From a virus, in the IMG/VR virus record IMGVR_UViG_3300025789_000135, positions 1 to 26,234 of that record: a stretch of 26,234 nucleotides of DNA; one strand, 5' to 3'. Made by a program: the position numbers and the translations under genes. Shown piece by piece: positions 17,864 to 26,234 of the stretch. The notes under the pieces are model-generated. The model saw only the letters and a program-made list of their open reading frames with translations. It had not been told where the DNA came from and did no database searches. Every line of letters begins with the position of its first letter. Position 1 is the stretch's first letter.

Positions 17864-17869
17864 TATAAA
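17841..17869 (+). promoter_or_regulatory. tRNA-cluster promoter P18
   Basis: -35 TTGACT (17841-17846), 17-base spacer, -10 TATAAA (17864-17869), 11 bases before the first tRNA. The -35 and spacer are coding sequence of the upstream gene. Confidence 0.8.
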
Positions 17870-18230: not shown

Positions 18231-18304
18231 GACGCTAGAGCATGATGGTAATGCAGGCAATTCTAACCTGCTTGATATGGGTTCGATTCCCATTAGCGTC
18301 ACCA
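18231..18304 (+). tRNA. Atypical tRNA: CTA (amber) or TCT (Arg)
   Basis: Acceptor GACGCTA/TAGCGTC and T-arm ATGGG-TTCGATT-CCCAT are perfect, and CCA is encoded. With canonical arm lengths (D-stem GCAT/ATGC, 18240-18254) the anticodon stem is GGCAA/CTGCT (G-U at 27-43, A.C at 31-39) and the loop TTCTAAC, giving anticodon CTA, complementary to the stop codon UAG. A rival fold uses GCAGG/CCTGC with a nine-base loop ending TTCTAA, which would present TCT (arginine) but destroys the D-stem. Position 8 is G, not U. Real tRNA, uncertain identity. Confidence 0.7.
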
Positions 18305-19464: not shown

Positions 19465-20268
19465 ATGAAAAAGAATCTTATCATTGGTGGATTTTCAGGA
19501 TATGAATATCCTCAAGTGCAACGGTGGGTAGAATCAGTTTGTGCGGTTGCTGATTCTAATACTGACAAAGTAATGGCAATAGGGAAAACTTCTCAGGAAA
19601 CTCAGGATAAGCTGATCTCTATGGGATTTATTCTGATTGATATGCCAATTGCTGATAATATTCCTGTTCACGTTCTTCGGTTTATCTGCATTTATGAGTT
19701 TCTCAAAACTCGATATACAAACTACAAGTACGTAGTTACCACTGATGTTAGAGATGTAATTTTCCAGCGCAATCCCTTTGAGTGGATTGTCAATTATATG
19801 GATCCTAGAAAGTCTTTAATTGCTGCTTCTGAATCTATGAAATATAAAGATGAACCATGGGGTAATCAAAATTTGATGGAAACTTATGGTCCATACATCT
19901 ACGAAAATTTCAAGTTTAATGAAATCTATAACGTTGGTGTTCTTGCTGGTGAATCTGAATATATCAAGGATTTGGTATTTAACATTTTTGTTAATGGCGT
20001 AAACAGACCAATTCCTATTGTTGATCAAGCCGTATATAATGTGATGATCCAAACTCAGCCATTTAAAGATGCTATTGACTTTGTTAGTCATGATTCCGGA
20101 TGGGCTTGTCAGCTAGGAACTACTGGTGATCCTAGAAAGATTGATTACTTTAGAGAGAATTTGCTCGGACCTGAGCCAGTATACAAAGACGGAGCCGTAT
20201 ATACTAGCTCTGGAGAAAAATACTATATAGTTCATCAGTATGATAGAGTGCCGGATTGGAAATTATAA
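19465..20268 (+). CDS. Glycosyltransferase-like protein (GT-A type)
   Basis: 267 residues. Residues 89-100 (YVVTTDVRDVIF) carry a DxxD motif (D94, D97) like the metal/nucleotide-sugar binding motif of GT-A enzymes, and NVGVLAG (156-162) followed by DQAVYN (187-192) fits the acceptor-site region of related enzymes. No signal peptide, so cytoplasmic. First gene of a coupled run to 24341 and probably the transfer enzyme for a phage or host glycan. Substrate unknown. Confidence 0.8.
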   Translation: MKKNLIIGGFSGYEYPQVQRWVESVCAVADSNTDKVMAIGKTSQETQDKLISMGFILIDMPIADNIPVHVLRFICIYEFLKTRYTNYKYVVTTDVRDVIFQRNPFEWIVNYMDPRKSLIAASESMKYKDEPWGNQNLMETYGPYIYENFKFNEIYNVGVLAGESEYIKDLVFNIFVNGVNRPIPIVDQAVYNVMIQTQPFKDAIDFVSHDSGWACQLGTTGDPRKIDYFRENLLGPEPVYKDGAVYTSSGEKYYIVHQYDRVPDWKL

Positions 20269-21230
20269 TGAAAAGAATTCTATATGTTGTACACCGTTAT
20301 GCACCGTTTCCCGGTGGTTCAGAAAATTATGTTCGAGATATGGCTGAAGAAACCCTTCGTCGAGGCCACATTGCTGCTGTTTTTGCTGGAGAGCATCAAG
20401 GCGAATTAAATGGCGTTCGAGTAACCAGCGATGCAAATGTATTATTGGAAAAATGGGACCTTATTGTAGTTCATGGTGCTACAGTAGGTGTTCAAGACTT
20501 TGTTCTTAGTAACTGCGCTAAAATCCCCTCACCAATATTGTTCCTAATTATTCTCCCTAAAGAAGCCCCAATACATGATTTTGCTTTAGAGAATATTCCT
20601 TATATTGGTTGTTCTACCCATGAAGATTGGGATTTCTTATACGCAAAGAATTCTGCATATAAAGGCGTTCAGGTTTCTCACGGAATTGATATTCGCAACT
20701 CTATGGGTTCTCCAGGGTTTAGAGAAAAGTATAATATCACAACAAAATATATGTTCTTGTCTTGCGGCGGGTTCTGGCCTAATAAAGCTATGCCAGAGCT
20801 TATAGAAGTATTCAATCGTCTTAATCGTGATGATGTGACTCTGGTACTTACAGGATATGATAACAGAAATGGTATGCAGCCACCAAACAGCTATAGAGTA
20901 AAATCTATTATGCTAGATTCTAGAGAAGATGTTCTTTCTGCTATTTCTGAGGCTGATCTTTATATTATGAATTCGCATTCAGAAGGGTTTGGTCTGGTTA
21001 TATTAGAATCTATGGCGAATAGAACTCCTTGGGCTGCTCGTAATATTGCTGGCGCTAAACTGTTGTCTGATTATGGTTTTGTTTATGATAATGATCAACA
21101 GCTATTAGATTATATGATAAATTTCCAAGGTGTTCACGATACAGAAATGAATATTAATCGTGATTATCTTGTACAAAATCATTCTATCTCAAATACTGTA
21201 GATGATATTTTAGAGGTATGTAATGCATAA
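20268..21230 (+). CDS. Glycosyltransferase family 4-like protein
   Basis: 320 residues, starting at the ATG that overlaps the previous stop (TAATG); a start at 20256 would be inside the upstream gene. N-terminal FPGGSENYV (14-22) is the donor-side glycine motif of GT-B enzymes, and EGFGLVILE (239-247) is the Ex7E catalytic/nucleotide motif of family 4. Both halves of the GT-B fold are present. Likely transfers an activated sugar; acceptor unknown. Confidence 0.88.
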   Translation: MKRILYVVHRYAPFPGGSENYVRDMAEETLRRGHIAAVFAGEHQGELNGVRVTSDANVLLEKWDLIVVHGATVGVQDFVLSNCAKIPSPILFLIILPKEAPIHDFALENIPYIGCSTHEDWDFLYAKNSAYKGVQVSHGIDIRNSMGSPGFREKYNITTKYMFLSCGGFWPNKAMPELIEVFNRLNRDDVTLVLTGYDNRNGMQPPNSYRVKSIMLDSREDVLSAISEADLYIMNSHSEGFGLVILESMANRTPWAARNIAGAKLLSDYGFVYDNDQQLLDYMINFQGVHDTEMNINRDYLVQNHSISNTVDDILEVCNA

Positions 21231-22605
21231 ACTGATTATCTTTGATCTTGACGGTGTATTAATTGAATCAAGAGATCTACATTATCATGCACTCAATGAG
21301 GCGTTGTCGTCAGTTGATCCAAAGTACGTAATTTCACGAGAAGAACATCTTAGTACATACGATGGATTGTCTACAACTCGTAAGTTGAAAATGCTTACTG
21401 AGCGTAAAGGATTGCCTGTAGACAAATATGATTATGTTTGGGAACACAAACAGACGGCAACATTTGAGCTTATTAAGCAATTTGGTGAAGAACATTTTCT
21501 TAGAAATATGTTCCTCTGGATTAAGCATCAAGGATATAAGATTGCTGTAGCTTCTAATTCTATTAGAGAAACTGTGAAGCTCGCTCTTATGGCTATTGGT
21601 GTTTTAGAGTATGTTGATTATTATGTTTCTAATGAGGATGTAACTAGATCAAAGCCGTATCCTGAAATGTATTGGAAATGTATGATTGCGCTTAATGCTC
21701 TTCCAAAAGATACAATCATTATCGAAGATAGTCATATTGGCAGACAAGGCGCTCTTGATTCAGGCGCGCATCTTCTGGCTGTAGAAAATGCCAAAGAAGT
21801 TAATTCTGAATTTATGCAACAAAGGATTAAAGATCTTATGAATACAATTGAAGGTAAAGGAAACAAATCTCTTCCTTGGAGAGATAATAAGCTGAATGTT
21901 CTTATTCCTATGGCTGGTGCTGGTAGTCGGTTTGCTCAGGCTGGTTATACTTTCCCAAAGCCTTTAATTGAAGTTCGCGGAAAGCCTATGATTCAGGTTG
22001 TTGTTGAGAATCTGAATATTGAAGCCAATTATATCTTTATCTGTCAGCAAGAGCATTACGAAAAATACAATCTGAAATATCTTCTAAACCTGATTGCACC
22101 TAACTGCAAGATTGTTCTAGTTGATGGTGTAACCGAAGGCGCTGCTTGCACTACTCTTCTTGCCAAAGAGTTTATTGACAACGATCAGCCTCTGGTTATG
22201 GCAAACTCTGATCAATTTATTGAATGGAACTCAAATGAAGTCATGTATGCATTCAATGCTGATTCTATAGACGGTGGTATTCTTACATTTAATGCTACTC
22301 ATCCTAAATGGTCTTACGCCAAACTAAACGAGGAAGGTTTCGTTTCTGAAGTTGCTGAAAAGAAAGTAATCTCTGATCTTGCTACTGTTGGTGTTTATTA
22401 TTGGTCTAAAGGATCAGATTACGTTAAGTATGCTGAACAGATGATCGAAAAAAATATTCGTGTTAATAACGAATTTTATGTCTGTCCTGTGTTTAACCAG
22501 GCTATTGAAGACGGCAAAAAGATTCGTGTGAAAACTATTGATAAGATGTGGGGTATCGGCACCCCTGAAGATCTTAATTATTTTCTATCGGAGAATCATG
22601 AATGA
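21223..22605 (+). CDS. HAD phosphatase fused to nucleotidyltransferase
   Basis: 460 residues in two domains. Residues 1-215: HAD hydrolase with motif I DLDGV (8-12), motif II SNS (111-113), motif III K144 in SKP, motif IV IEDS (167-170), a beta-phosphoglucomutase or phosphoglycolate-phosphatase type. Residues 224-460: nucleotidyltransferase (MAGAGSRF at 230-237, KPLIEVRGKPMI at 246-257, and GTPEDLNYF near the C-terminus). The fusion suggests a dephosphorylation and an NTP-activation step in nucleotide-sugar or related donor synthesis. Overlaps upstream gene by eight bases. Confidence 0.87.
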   Translation: MHKLIIFDLDGVLIESRDLHYHALNEALSSVDPKYVISREEHLSTYDGLSTTRKLKMLTERKGLPVDKYDYVWEHKQTATFELIKQFGEEHFLRNMFLWIKHQGYKIAVASNSIRETVKLALMAIGVLEYVDYYVSNEDVTRSKPYPEMYWKCMIALNALPKDTIIIEDSHIGRQGALDSGAHLLAVENAKEVNSEFMQQRIKDLMNTIEGKGNKSLPWRDNKLNVLIPMAGAGSRFAQAGYTFPKPLIEVRGKPMIQVVVENLNIEANYIFICQQEHYEKYNLKYLLNLIAPNCKIVLVDGVTEGAACTTLLAKEFIDNDQPLVMANSDQFIEWNSNEVMYAFNADSIDGGILTFNATHPKWSYAKLNEEGFVSEVAEKKVISDLATVGVYYWSKGSDYVKYAEQMIEKNIRVNNEFYVCPVFNQAIEDGKKIRVKTIDKMWGIGTPEDLNYFLSENHE

Positions 22606-23288
22606 AAATAGCTATATTACTGTCTGGAAATGTAAGAACATGGGACCAAACTAAAGATAGTTTTATTAATGTTTTTGGTAATACTGCTGATATCTTTCTA
22701 GCTACGTATAACCGTCGTTATAACTATCATCCTTATATTCAAGGCAAGTTCGGATATCAAGATGATGAGATTCTAGACAATCAGCGTATTTTTGAATTGT
22801 TTAGCGGTCTTAATCTTAAAAAGGTGCTTATTGACGATAACTCTGAAAACTATAAGGTTCCTGACGCTGTTGATCCTAGACACAAAGATCATGAAAGTAC
22901 CTACTATCAGTATTTAAAGTTCAGACAAGCTGTTGAAATGATGATTCAGCAAGAAAAAGAACAGGGCTGGCAGTATGATATTGTTGTCAAATCTAGATGC
23001 GATCTAGTTTATGTGGACTATCCAGTTAATTTTGATCCAAATGTTGTTACTATTGATTCTGCTAATACATTTCCTAATGACTGGATATTCTTATCTAAGA
23101 GAGATAATATCGTCAATATGTCTGAATTTATTATGCAAGAATTTTATAATCCGAAATTCGAAGATAGTCACGAAACTCCTCCGCATAGACTGCTTCTAAA
23201 TTCTATGAAAAACTTTAATTTGCCTATCAACCAAGAAAAGATAGTCCAATACGTATTACGTAGAGGCGATAAAAAAGATTATTATTAA
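22602..23288 (+). CDS. Putative glycosyltransferase, 228 aa
   Basis: 228 residues. MKIAILLSGNVRTWDQTKDS is the opening strand of a GT-like fold with a glycine loop, and VVKSRCDLVYVD (128-139) resembles a nucleotide-sugar binding DxD-type region (R-C-D). Catalytic residues are not certain. It sits in the glycan operon (ATGA overlap upstream), which supports the call. Confidence 0.68.
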   Translation: MKIAILLSGNVRTWDQTKDSFINVFGNTADIFLATYNRRYNYHPYIQGKFGYQDDEILDNQRIFELFSGLNLKKVLIDDNSENYKVPDAVDPRHKDHESTYYQYLKFRQAVEMMIQQEKEQGWQYDIVVKSRCDLVYVDYPVNFDPNVVTIDSANTFPNDWIFLSKRDNIVNMSEFIMQEFYNPKFEDSHETPPHRLLLNSMKNFNLPINQEKIVQYVLRRGDKKDYY

Positions 23289-23298
23289 GGAATTGTAT

Positions 23299-23898
23299 AT
23301 GAGAACTGTTATTGAAGTTGGTATGAATCAAGGAACGGATACTCCTAATTATCTTACTCAAAATGATATGGTTCTATACGGCTTTGAGCCCACTGTAGAA
23401 TTGGTCAAGTTGCTCAATGAAAAGTATGGAAATGACAGCAGAGTAAAGATTATCCCTCTTGCTGTTGATATTGAGAACAGATTTACTACGTTTAATGTTG
23501 CTGGTTGGCAAGATTGGGGTTGCAGTTCTCTTAATGATTTTACTGACAATGTTTCCGAAAGGTGGAGTGGATTTGACTTTCACTATACGGGCAAACAGTC
23601 TGTTATGACTATTCGTCTTGATGACTTCTGCCGTATGCACAATATCACTCAGATTGACTACCTCCATGTTGATGCGCAGGGCAGCGATTTCAATGTTCTT
23701 AAGAGTCTTGGTGATTATATTGATATTGTACATGCTGGTGTAGTAGAAGTTTCTTATAATGTTCCGCTGTATAAAGGTGTGGATAATTCTTACGATAGCG
23801 TTTCTGCTTGGCTAACTGATAAAGGCTTTGTGTTTGATGTAACTTATGATCATCCTGAATTTAAGACAGAAGCCAATATCTATTTCCGGAGACCATAA
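23299..23898 (+). CDS. FkbM-family methyltransferase
   Basis: 199 residues from ATG 23299 with AAGGAA upstream. SAM-binding EVGMNQG (6-12), YGFEP (27-31), TIRLDDF (104-110) and HVDAQGSD (123-130), in the order of FkbM methyltransferases, which usually O-methylate sugars or natural products. It would methylate the glycan made by the neighbouring enzymes. TAATG overlap with the next gene. Confidence 0.88.
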   Translation: MRTVIEVGMNQGTDTPNYLTQNDMVLYGFEPTVELVKLLNEKYGNDSRVKIIPLAVDIENRFTTFNVAGWQDWGCSSLNDFTDNVSERWSGFDFHYTGKQSVMTIRLDDFCRMHNITQIDYLHVDAQGSDFNVLKSLGDYIDIVHAGVVEVSYNVPLYKGVDNSYDSVSAWLTDKGFVFDVTYDHPEFKTEANIYFRRP

Positions 23899-24341
23899 TG
23901 AAGCTAATTGCGCATAGAGGTCTATTTCTTGGTCCCGATGAAGCAGTAGAAAATTCTCCAGAACAAATTGACAAAGCATTAAGTAACGAATTTGATGCTG
24001 AAATTGATCTTTGGTATACAAATGGTGAATTGTGGTTGGGTCACGACAATCCTACTTACCCAATCTCAAAAAACTGGCTTGATGATCGTGTGTTTAAGTT
24101 GTGGATTCATGCAAAAAATCTTGGCGCTCTTCGTTGGTTAAGTGACACGAGCTACAACTTTTTTTGGCATCAAAAAGATGATTTCGTTATTACTAGCCAC
24201 GGATATATCTGGACTTATCCAGGAAAGTCTCTTACAACAATTAGTATTAATGTGATGCCTGAGTGGCTTGATCCTGATCTTAAAGACGTGAATCGCTCGT
24301 GTTATGGTATTTGTAGCGATTTTATTGAAAAAATAGCTTGA
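23898..24341 (+). CDS. Glycerophosphodiester phosphodiesterase-like protein
   Basis: 147 residues with the first half of a GDPD TIM barrel: IAHRG (4-8), EN (18-19), E35 and D37 in AEIDLW, LGHD (47-50). These are the catalytic His, metal-binding Glu/Asp and second His of the family. Full enzymes are about 240 residues or more, so this is a short version; it may be a single-domain phosphodiesterase or partly degenerate. Last gene of the glycan operon; its TGA lies in the -35 of P19. Confidence 0.78.
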   Translation: MKLIAHRGLFLGPDEAVENSPEQIDKALSNEFDAEIDLWYTNGELWLGHDNPTYPISKNWLDDRVFKLWIHAKNLGALRWLSDTSYNFFWHQKDDFVITSHGYIWTYPGKSLTTISINVMPEWLDPDLKDVNRSCYGICSDFIEKIA

Positions 24342-24410: not shown

Positions 24411-25361
24411 ATGGCACATGAACTTGAGTTTGTTAATGGTGAAGCTCAGATGGCTTATGTTGGGGATACCCCTTGGCATGGTCTTGGTAAGGCTGTTCAC
24501 GGCGATCTTACTCCCGAGCAAATGATGAAGGAAGCTGGTCTTAACTGGGAAGTTCGTAAGGTTCCTCTTCATGTTGAGCTGAATGGTCGGAACGTATATA
24601 CTGGGCGTGAAGCTCTAGTTCGTTCGAGCGATGATCGTATTCTTGACGTTGTTACTCAGAATTGGGTTCCTTGTCAGAATAGCGAAGCCTTCGAATTCTT
24701 CAATGACTTTATCGGTAATGGTGACATGCAGATGCATACTGCTGGTTCTCTGCGTAACGGTCAGTATGTTTGGGCTTTGGCTAAGGTAAATGAAGGGTTT
24801 GATCTTTTCGGTGGAGATAAGGTTGAATCTTATCTATTGTTCAGTAATCCTCATCAGTTTGGTAAGTCGATTACTGTTCAGTTTACTCCCATCCGTGTTG
24901 TTTGTATGAACACTCTTTCGCTGTCGCTTTCGACTAAGGCTGATAAGATGCTTCGTGTTGATCATCGTCGTGCTTTTGATGGCGATACTGTGAAGGAAAC
25001 TCTGGGTATTGCTAAGGATAAGCTGAACACCTATAAGGAAATGGCTGCATTTCTTGGGTCAAAGCGTTATACTGGCGAAACAATGACTGAGTATTTTAAT
25101 CAGGTATTTCCTTCGTCTAATAAAGAATCTAATGATCTGTCTCGTGCTGCTGAATTGGCTTTGGCTATTGTTCATGAACAGCCTGGCGCTCGTTATGCTG
25201 AAGGTAGTTGGTGGCAGGCATTTAATGCTGTTACGTATCTGACTGATCACGAACTTGGTCGTACTGCTGATACTCGTCTGTATAACAGCTGGTTTGGCGC
25301 TAACAAGGAACGTAAGGTTAAGGCTCTTAATCTTGCTGTGGAATACGCTGAAGCAGCATAA
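24411..25361 (+). CDS. DUF932 phage/plasmid protein
   Basis: 316 residues. WHGLG (22-26) after an acidic N-terminus, then VTQNWVPCQNSEAFEFFNDF, SPHQFGKSI-type sequence (SNPHQFGKSITVQFTPIRVV) and CMNTLSLSLS are the hallmarks of the DUF932 family (also called phage/plasmid-like protein TIGR03299) of phages and plasmids. The molecular role is not established. AAGGA ribosome site. The gene ends 22 bases before the tmRNA acceptor segment, so P19 may transcribe both. Confidence 0.9.
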   Translation: MAHELEFVNGEAQMAYVGDTPWHGLGKAVHGDLTPEQMMKEAGLNWEVRKVPLHVELNGRNVYTGREALVRSSDDRILDVVTQNWVPCQNSEAFEFFNDFIGNGDMQMHTAGSLRNGQYVWALAKVNEGFDLFGGDKVESYLLFSNPHQFGKSITVQFTPIRVVCMNTLSLSLSTKADKMLRVDHRRAFDGDTVKETLGIAKDKLNTYKEMAAFLGSKRYTGETMTEYFNQVFPSSNKESNDLSRAAELALAIVHEQPGARYAEGSWWQAFNAVTYLTDHELGRTADTRLYNSWFGANKERKVKALNLAVEYAEAA

Positions 25362-25383
25362 ATAATTTTATCAGTTGTTGACA

Positions 25384-25435
25384 ATCAACAATAAAGGTCT
25401 AGAGGACACGGGGGCAGTACCCGTCACCTCCACCA
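25384..25435 (+). ncRNA. ssrA: tmRNA acceptor piece (permuted two-piece tmRNA)
   Basis: T-arm ACGGG-GGCAGTA-CCCGT (25408-25424) with the non-consensus loop known from alphaproteobacterial tmRNA, then CACCTCC (25426-25432, includes the start of the acceptor end) and encoded CCA at 25433-25435. CACCTCC pairs with GGGGGTG at 25500-25506 of the coding piece, including the G3-U70 pair that marks alanine acceptors. The 5' end is set approximately; no clear own promoter was found. Confidence 0.85.
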
Positions 25436-25499
25436 TCTACTACGATACTCGTGTCGAGTACTTCGCGCAAAGTCAGGGATTGTTACCGTAGTAGTTGAT
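25436..25499 (+). ncRNA. tmRNA processing hairpin (spacer removed from mature RNA)
   Basis: Stem CTACTACG (25437-25444) / CGTAGTAG (25487-25494) holds the two pieces together; inside it lies a hairpin TACTCG/CGAGTA (25446-25460). This is the expected intervening segment of a permuted precursor, cleaved out after transcription. Confidence 0.8.
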
Positions 25500-25667
25500 G
25501 GGGGTGAACTAGGATCGACTTGGGCGGAATAGGAAGATTCGAGACTGATTCGCTGGCCGAGTGGCTAAATAAACGTAGATGCAAACGATAACAGCGCATA
25601 TGGAAATCTTGCTCTAGCAGCATGATCTTTCGGGGTTTGGTGGGAACCTAGCAACAGAATCCCACCA
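25500..25667 (+). ncRNA. ssrA: tmRNA coding piece, tag ANDNSAYGNLALAA
   Basis: Starts GGGGGTG and then AACTAGGATCGAC, the tRNA-like D-arm consensus. The resume codon is GCA at 25581, preceded by GTAGAT. The frame encodes ANDNSAYGNLALAA and stops at TGA 25623-25625; the ALAA end is a ClpXP-type degradation signal. A hairpin GGTGGGA/TCCCACC (25639-25666) closes the piece. It rescues stalled ribosomes by trans-translation, with SmpB from host or phage. Alphaproteobacterial type, here in a phage. Confidence 0.9.
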
Positions 25668-26234
25668 CTTAGATGAACCTACTTTGCCGACGGGTTCTAC
25701 CACCGGAATAAGTCTTGACGAAGACGTTGGTGGCTGCCGTGGAGAGGGCGCTCCATATCGTAGGTTCTTCTAAGTTTAGCTCCACGGTTTATCGAGGGGC
25801 AGGAAAAGCCTGGTGAATGCATAGTAAGACAGTTAACTTGACTGATACTGCTTTGTTGAAATCAGGTACTAGCAAAGGGCTTAAACAACATTAAGCCTGG
25901 TCGTAATAAGAGAGAAAACCGAGAATGTGGGACAGAGGAAGAAGTTCCCGAGTCAAAGATTCAGAGCAAGTATCCCGCCCTAGTGGTAAGTTTTCCTGTC
26001 ACGCGGTAAACCGTGGTATAAATAAGTTTTGTTGGGTCCGAGCAAAAGAACGCAAGATCCTAACTATCGAGGAAGATCATCACCCTAGCTGATAACCGCC
26101 ACTATGTGGGATGTTCGGCGCAACCGATGAAAGATTTATTCTAGGGGGGCTACGTATAGCGATTGCCCTTAAACGGAGCGATAGTACCCAGCAAACTTTG
26201 ATGAACACTGACAACGAATAACGCCACGCGGATA
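25668..26234 (+). ncRNA. Large structured non-coding RNA candidate, continues past window
   Basis: No gene in 567 bases. Helices seen: CTTAGA-T-GAACCTAC (25668-25682) with GTAGGTTC-T-TCTAAG (25760-25774); nested CCACC/GGTGG (25700-25733) with GTCTT-GACG-AAGAC; an eight-base pseudoknot CCGTGGAG (25737-25744) with CTCCACGG (25780-25787); hairpin GGCTTA/TAAGCC (25878-25897); pseudoknot CTGAT/ATCAG with CTTTG/CAAAG (25842-25877); long-range ATCCC...TAGTGG (25972-25986) with CCACTA...GGGAT (26099-26112); TCGG/CCGA (26115-26127). Size, phage setting and tRNA/tmRNA vicinity recall GOLLD or ROOL RNAs, but no sequence signature was recognised. Confidence 0.6.

Follow-up and report, generated by a model that had tools for sequence, protein, structure and literature searches.

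We analyzed a window of 26,234 bases, which is an entire IMG/VR fragment from a phage that looks T4-like. A small tRNA array in this window ends with a tRNA with anticodon CTA (18231–18304), which Aragorn called as tRNA-Pyl and which may be a phage amber-suppressor tRNA. A run of sugar-related genes (19465–24341), including a glycosyltransferase-like gene and a HAD plus nucleotidyltransferase fusion (21223–22605), lies upstream of a tmRNA gene. The tmRNA is a clear member of the permuted (two-piece) family RF04321, whose model matched at 105 bits over 25373–25625, with the acceptor piece preceding the coding piece. Beyond the tmRNA, Rfam at E ≤ 5 matched no family from there to the window end, and one sub-threshold match, to a CRISPR repeat, lay just before and at the tmRNA start. 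The order that follows is tmRNA, module C, module A, a late-promoter-like 12-mer, module D and the start of module B; in relatives, a module E comes after module B. The features of the tmRNA region, with the evidence for each in brackets, are:

25357..25364, + strand: late-promoter-like site CATAAATA before the tmRNA (pattern scan)
25373..25670, + strand: permuted tmRNA of the alphaproteobacterial type, tag ANDNSAYGNLALAA (Rfam RF04321, 105 bits; RF01849, 118 bits; Aragorn)
25633..25669, + strand: 3' pseudoknot element of the tmRNA (alignment of the window with contig L126, and the L126 sequence)
25669..25774, + strand: module C, a closed domain of ~105 nt (closing helix 25669–25682 / 25760–25773; fold z = –3.0)
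25780..26016, + strand: module A, a new RNA family (10 distinct homologs; covariance model (CM), 244 bits; pair counts; no Rfam family)
25782–25790 / 26008–26016, + strand: P1 helix of module A (homolog pair counts)
25792–25807 / 25991–26006, + strand: core helix of module A (homolog pair counts)
26016..26027, + strand: copy of a T4-type late promoter, GTATAAATAAGT (pattern scan; gp33-type late regulator in the L126 phage)
26025..26199, + strand: module D, start of a probable second RNA (helix scan, thermodynamics and position; near-identical in three phage groups)
26199..26234, + strand: 5' part of module B (match to covariance model R2, truncated at its 3' side by the contig end, 21.4 bits; pair counts on complete homologs)

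The original prediction placed a gene-free stretch directly after the phage tmRNA, and both points hold. The permuted tmRNA ends at about 25670, and there is no convincing coding frame in 25672–26234, where each of the six frames carries 5–16 stops and 60 codons is the longest stretch without one. Modules C, A and D are outside the tmRNA and belong to no tmRNA model. A 14-base helix with one mismatch, also predicted, was found (25669–25682 with 25760–25773); it is conserved and closes module C. An eight-base pseudoknot said to cross this helix did not survive comparison with relatives: the only identifiable candidate, CCGTGGAG (25737–25744) with CTCCACGG (25780–25787), is broken in the related contig L126 (CCATGGAG), and its 3' arm is the 5' strand of the covarying helix of module A and is missing altogether in a third phage group. 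Nor was it confirmed that helix content alone goes beyond chance. Helices of 14 bases with no more than one mismatch gave seven matches (three helices) in the window versus 0–16 in 25 dinucleotide shuffles, and the fold of the whole stretch had z = –2.4 (–0.31 for the minus strand). Since such helices are no more frequent than in shuffles and the energy signal is modest, relatives have to carry the case.

Two patterns, the first of 20 bases, led to contigs that are related over the region as a whole. Five near-identical contigs of another phage (L126–L130) share 97.5% identity with the window over 604 nt from 25633, whereas the proteins shared by the two phages are 44–62% identical. The RNA region of L126 extends from about 1551 to 2334 (784 nt) and ends just before an ORF, in agreement with the predicted continuation past the window end. 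A third phage group (L135, L137, L139, L140, and L143) matches L126 almost throughout; precisely positions 110–347, that is, module A, are missing. The join keeps one TA, and L126 has TA on both sides of the module. The RNA region is otherwise nearly unchanged across the three phage groups. From these sequences we infer a recent phage–phage exchange rather than extreme constraint, because module A falls to 77–48% identity elsewhere. Relatives that were reached through the neighboring DUF932 gene share the permuted tmRNA; ~300 nt downstream, however, they usually carry an ordinary gene instead of this RNA. A small homing-endonuclease-like ORF (phrog_314, E = 3e-4) lies directly behind the DUF932 gene in L127 (5262–5783, minus strand).

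These boundaries bear on the idea that module A (and B) are mobile RNA cassettes, selfish or shuffled, which insert into transcribed phage loci via phage recombination or an endonuclease. Phages with and without module A differ by a segment that ends within a few bases of the RNA domain and has TA on both sides, the contrast between RNA and protein identities argues for recent transfer even though module A is far more diverged elsewhere, and a 256-aa ORF (L126 668–1438, minus strand) separates the tmRNA from the RNA region. A two-base TA flank, however, may reflect an ordinary microhomology deletion, and the ORF, which on inspection had looked to us like a homing endonuclease, has no Pfam or PHROGs match. 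We consider this explanation improbable.

Modules C, D, and E are known only from the three nearly identical phage groups, which offer no covariation for their folds; the fold of module D is based on thermodynamics and position. Module C is 98–100% conserved in the three groups, and the closing helix of module D lies at about 26026–26036 / 26187–26197. In L126 the 3' pseudoknot element of the tmRNA occurs once more (1507–1550), directly before module C, and the stem changes of this element between the window and L126 match each other (GTGGG/CCCAC versus GTGGTT/AACCAC). The full-length relative folded better than shuffles (z = –3.5); its C–A part, a two-domain stretch, did far better than shuffles (z = –5.1), and D–B–E was by energy alone no better than shuffles (z = –0.54).

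Module A is a new structured RNA family, the helix of which has been kept through two-sided changes. Ten distinct sequences were recovered (cmsearch E below 1e-40), and their carriers include metagenomic phages, among them a record of 360 kb, and two named phages, Lacusarx of Sphingobium (L131) and XM05 of Erythrobacter (L297). All copies outside the RNA described here are found within tRNA arrays or at their beginning, co-directional with the tRNAs; in L157, L158, and L166 the module sits directly between tRNA-Cys and tRNA-Ile, with gaps of a few bases on each side. The long-range helix named in the original prediction corresponds to the two closing segments of this module, and here the covariation of homologs supports it well; the first helix, that of module C, is conserved. 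Across the ten sequences, 99.5% of the cells of the long closing helix are paired, with seven two-sided pairs. For the whole structure 98% of cells are paired, two-sided changes occur in 12 of 30 pairs, and the score was reached in 0 of 500 shuffles. Sliding the structure by 1–3 columns left only 32–49% of cells paired, and the same pairs covary in a MAFFT alignment that was made without fitting to the model. The shuffle controls keep the relatedness among the sequences; the argument is therefore carried by the slid-structure control and by the independent pair types of distant phages (L131, L297, L164, and L170). In XM05, for example, the core helix GGCUGG/CCAGUC replaces the otherwise invariant GGCAGG/CCUGUC.

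Several searches define the reach of this family. Module A matched no Rfam 15 family, and Rfam at permissive cut-offs, including GOLLD and ROOL, returned nothing for module A or B. When the whole stretch was compared with the phage collection at the nucleotide level, no match was significant, but a 33-base match of chance level in Lacusarx proved to be module A. Searching the same collection with module B, module C, or another copy of module A added no further homologs; scanning the genome collection with the 5' motif of module A yielded only chance matches among the matches listed; and module models found no copy in four single genomes. Exact-pattern matches such as those in L136, L147, L152, L155, and L160 were set aside as chance, and a weak match in L092/L093 as lying inside an ORF. 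More divergent members will have been missed, as a pattern scan picks up nothing but exact matches.

In Lacusarx, XM05, L165, and L170, all of them phages of sphingomonads and relatives, the gene order is tyrosine recombinase, hypothetical gene, module A, tRNA array. This order would fit a function at the DNA level, in which module A is a recombination site for the nearby-encoded recombinase and folds as single-stranded DNA. Many G-U pairs, conserved and exchanged, are nevertheless found on the tRNA-sense strand of module A, which favors RNA over DNA, and the module is strictly co-directional with the tRNAs. No recombinase is seen beside module A in the window, and module A is absent from five other phages with the same tyrosine recombinase. 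We regard a DNA-level function as very unlikely.

The window breaks off inside module B, whose 5' part takes up the final 36 bases; L126 has the module complete, at 2080–2175. Module B is likewise a new family with a fold supported by covariation: six distinct sequences have 99.5% of their cells paired, and the covariation score was reached in 0 of 500 shuffles. The fold consists of a closing stem, two hairpins, and a pseudoknot that pairs CRCC with the loop GGUG. Two-sided changes fall in the closing stem, in two short helices, and at one internal pair, whereas in the loop pseudoknot only one of the two strands varies. In L081, L144, and L148, module B lies inside the intervening loop of permuted tmRNAs of the RF04321 type, and its closing stem prolongs the acceptor helix. 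It precedes a tmRNA in L150. Most related permuted tmRNAs do not have module B. In L151, positions 1–400 hold module B and part of module D, followed by sequence unlike module E of L126, and we take this layout as another sign of module exchange.

Module B has the same CUAG–hairpin–CGAAAAGC–hairpin core within a closing stem as int-alpA RNA (RF02996), and in both the loop of the second hairpin is used in a pseudoknot. The pseudoknot partner is downstream in the int-alpA-type leaders and upstream in module B, and the contexts differ. A pattern from the module B core also finds the 5'-leader RNAs that Rfam calls int-alpA, although, as the pattern was derived from module B, this is not an independent test of the likeness. 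The complete module B of L144 had no match to the RF02996 model at E ≤ 10. A kinship between module B and int-alpA RNA is therefore no more than suggested. RNAs of the int-alpA type were seen in L300 (313–380), L304 (522–590), L307 (3190–3254), and L298 (953–1016), the last below the gathering score. They stand at the extreme 5' end of the leaders of phage genes, immediately behind a –10-like box, and their loop can pair downstream, just before the ribosome-binding site.

Such leader positions are one reason to consider that modules A and B act in cis, as leaders, spacers, or processing signals that direct RNase cleavage or shield the neighboring tRNA or tmRNA, with no trans function of their own. 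The constant, co-directional placement beside tRNAs or within the tmRNA precursor loop would agree with this, as would the module B helix that prolongs the acceptor stem in L081, L144, and L148. On the other hand, the scarcity of module B among related permuted tmRNAs and the lack of module A at the other tRNAs of the arrays speak against a processing signal; module A, at up to 240 nt with an invariant core, is large for one; and the C–A and D–B–E arrangements place both modules away from a mature tRNA end. On balance, a purely cis-acting role appears rather unlikely.

We then considered how the stretch may be transcribed. The sequence TATAAATA is the consensus of T4 late promoters. The motif [TC]ATAAATA (TATAAATA or CATAAATA) occurs at only three sites on the + strand of the window: 17864, which precedes the tRNA array; 25357, which precedes the tmRNA; and 26017, between modules A and D. 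The 12-mer GTATAAATAAGT is common to the sites at 17864 and 26017 and is also found before the tmRNA of L126. The L126 phage has a match to phage late-promoter regulators of the gp33 type (phrog_254), and a gp32-like single-strand DNA-binding protein adjoins this match, as in T4-like phages. A second RNA is probably initiated from this late promoter at about 26030, with the closing helix of module D at its 5' end. As a promoter copy thus lies between module A and the rest, there are probably two transcripts; a single longer transcript is possible if the late promoter is unused.

The original prediction had proposed one large RNA, possibly of a new family. Its description as structured, non-coding, and new was borne out, but the stretch is made of separable modules, two of which recur elsewhere, and is probably divided between two transcripts. 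A single ornate RNA of ~780 nt in the style of GOLLD and ROOL, folding as a unit, perhaps as a homo-oligomer, and with an incidental TATAAATA match, would account for the ~784 gene-free nucleotides beside the tmRNA and for the folding energy of the full-length relative, and those large phage RNAs often occur near tRNA islands (PMC12286853). Yet loss of module A leaves the rest undisturbed, modules A and B occur by themselves in other places, the 12-base promoter sequence of the tRNA array is repeated without change midway through the region, D–B–E has no energy signal on its own, and the GOLLD and ROOL models found no match. We therefore judge a single large RNA to be an unlikely reading. The stretch behind the tmRNA is a non-coding chain of separable RNA modules, for which one giant RNA is not the best reading. 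It represents an RNA discovery rather than ordinary spacer: two structured RNAs, previously uncatalogued, have building blocks beside this phage tmRNA.

The explanation that we prefer, and to which we give about an even chance of being correct, is that a T4-like phage encodes two stable non-coding RNAs, parts of which lie in this stretch, and that these RNAs are released late in infection and act in trans. RNA 1 would follow the 3' end of the tmRNA and comprise modules C and A; RNA 2 would start from the late promoter at 26016–26027 and comprise modules D, B, and, in relatives, E. tRNA-processing nucleases would free module A from tRNA arrays, and tmRNA maturation would free module B from the intervening loop of permuted tmRNA precursors. 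We infer release by tRNA and tmRNA maturation because the modules lie between tRNAs and inside the tmRNA loop. The compact closed folds would make the freed modules stable and nuclease-resistant. In line with what has been suggested for other RNAs of phage tRNA islands, the most likely role of modules A and B would be to act in trans, late in infection, on a target in the host translation or RNA-decay machinery. A further, less probable variant is that modules A and B are functional cassettes that have moved among tRNA arrays, tmRNA precursor loops, and larger RNAs, are released by maturation, and serve host takeover through an intrinsic activity, as a ribozyme or by binding a ligand or capturing a protein.

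Among known phage RNAs, T4 rnaC and rnaD (the stable RNAs species 1 and 2) lie, by annotation, within a phage tRNA array and in the tRNA orientation, like module A. Homology to them was considered and rejected, as the R1 (module A) and R2 (module B) models, run on the complete T4 genome, place no match on either. GOLLD and ROOL are large structured RNAs of phages and prophages that are often located near tRNA islands; GOLLD rises at phage lysis, and other RNAs of phage tRNA islands are also of unknown function (PMC12286853). The original prediction found no signature to assign the stretch to either, and consistent with this, their covariance models have no match in the window (Rfam, E ≤ 5) or in the complete relative L126 (E ≤ 1). 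The RNAs described here resemble GOLLD in being phage-borne near tRNA genes, behind a tmRNA and, for module A, in tRNA arrays. Unlike GOLLD and ROOL, they consist of separable modules of ~90–240 nt, two of which are reused elsewhere, beside a permuted tmRNA. They add two compact families with covariation-supported folds to the large RNAs of phage tRNA islands, one (module A) present in cultured phages of Sphingobium and Erythrobacter and the other (module B) in the loops of permuted tmRNAs. With module A between tRNAs and module B inside a tmRNA precursor, their role is testable in an isolated phage–host pair, and a module of 90 nt or 240 nt is easier to study than an RNA of 800 nt.
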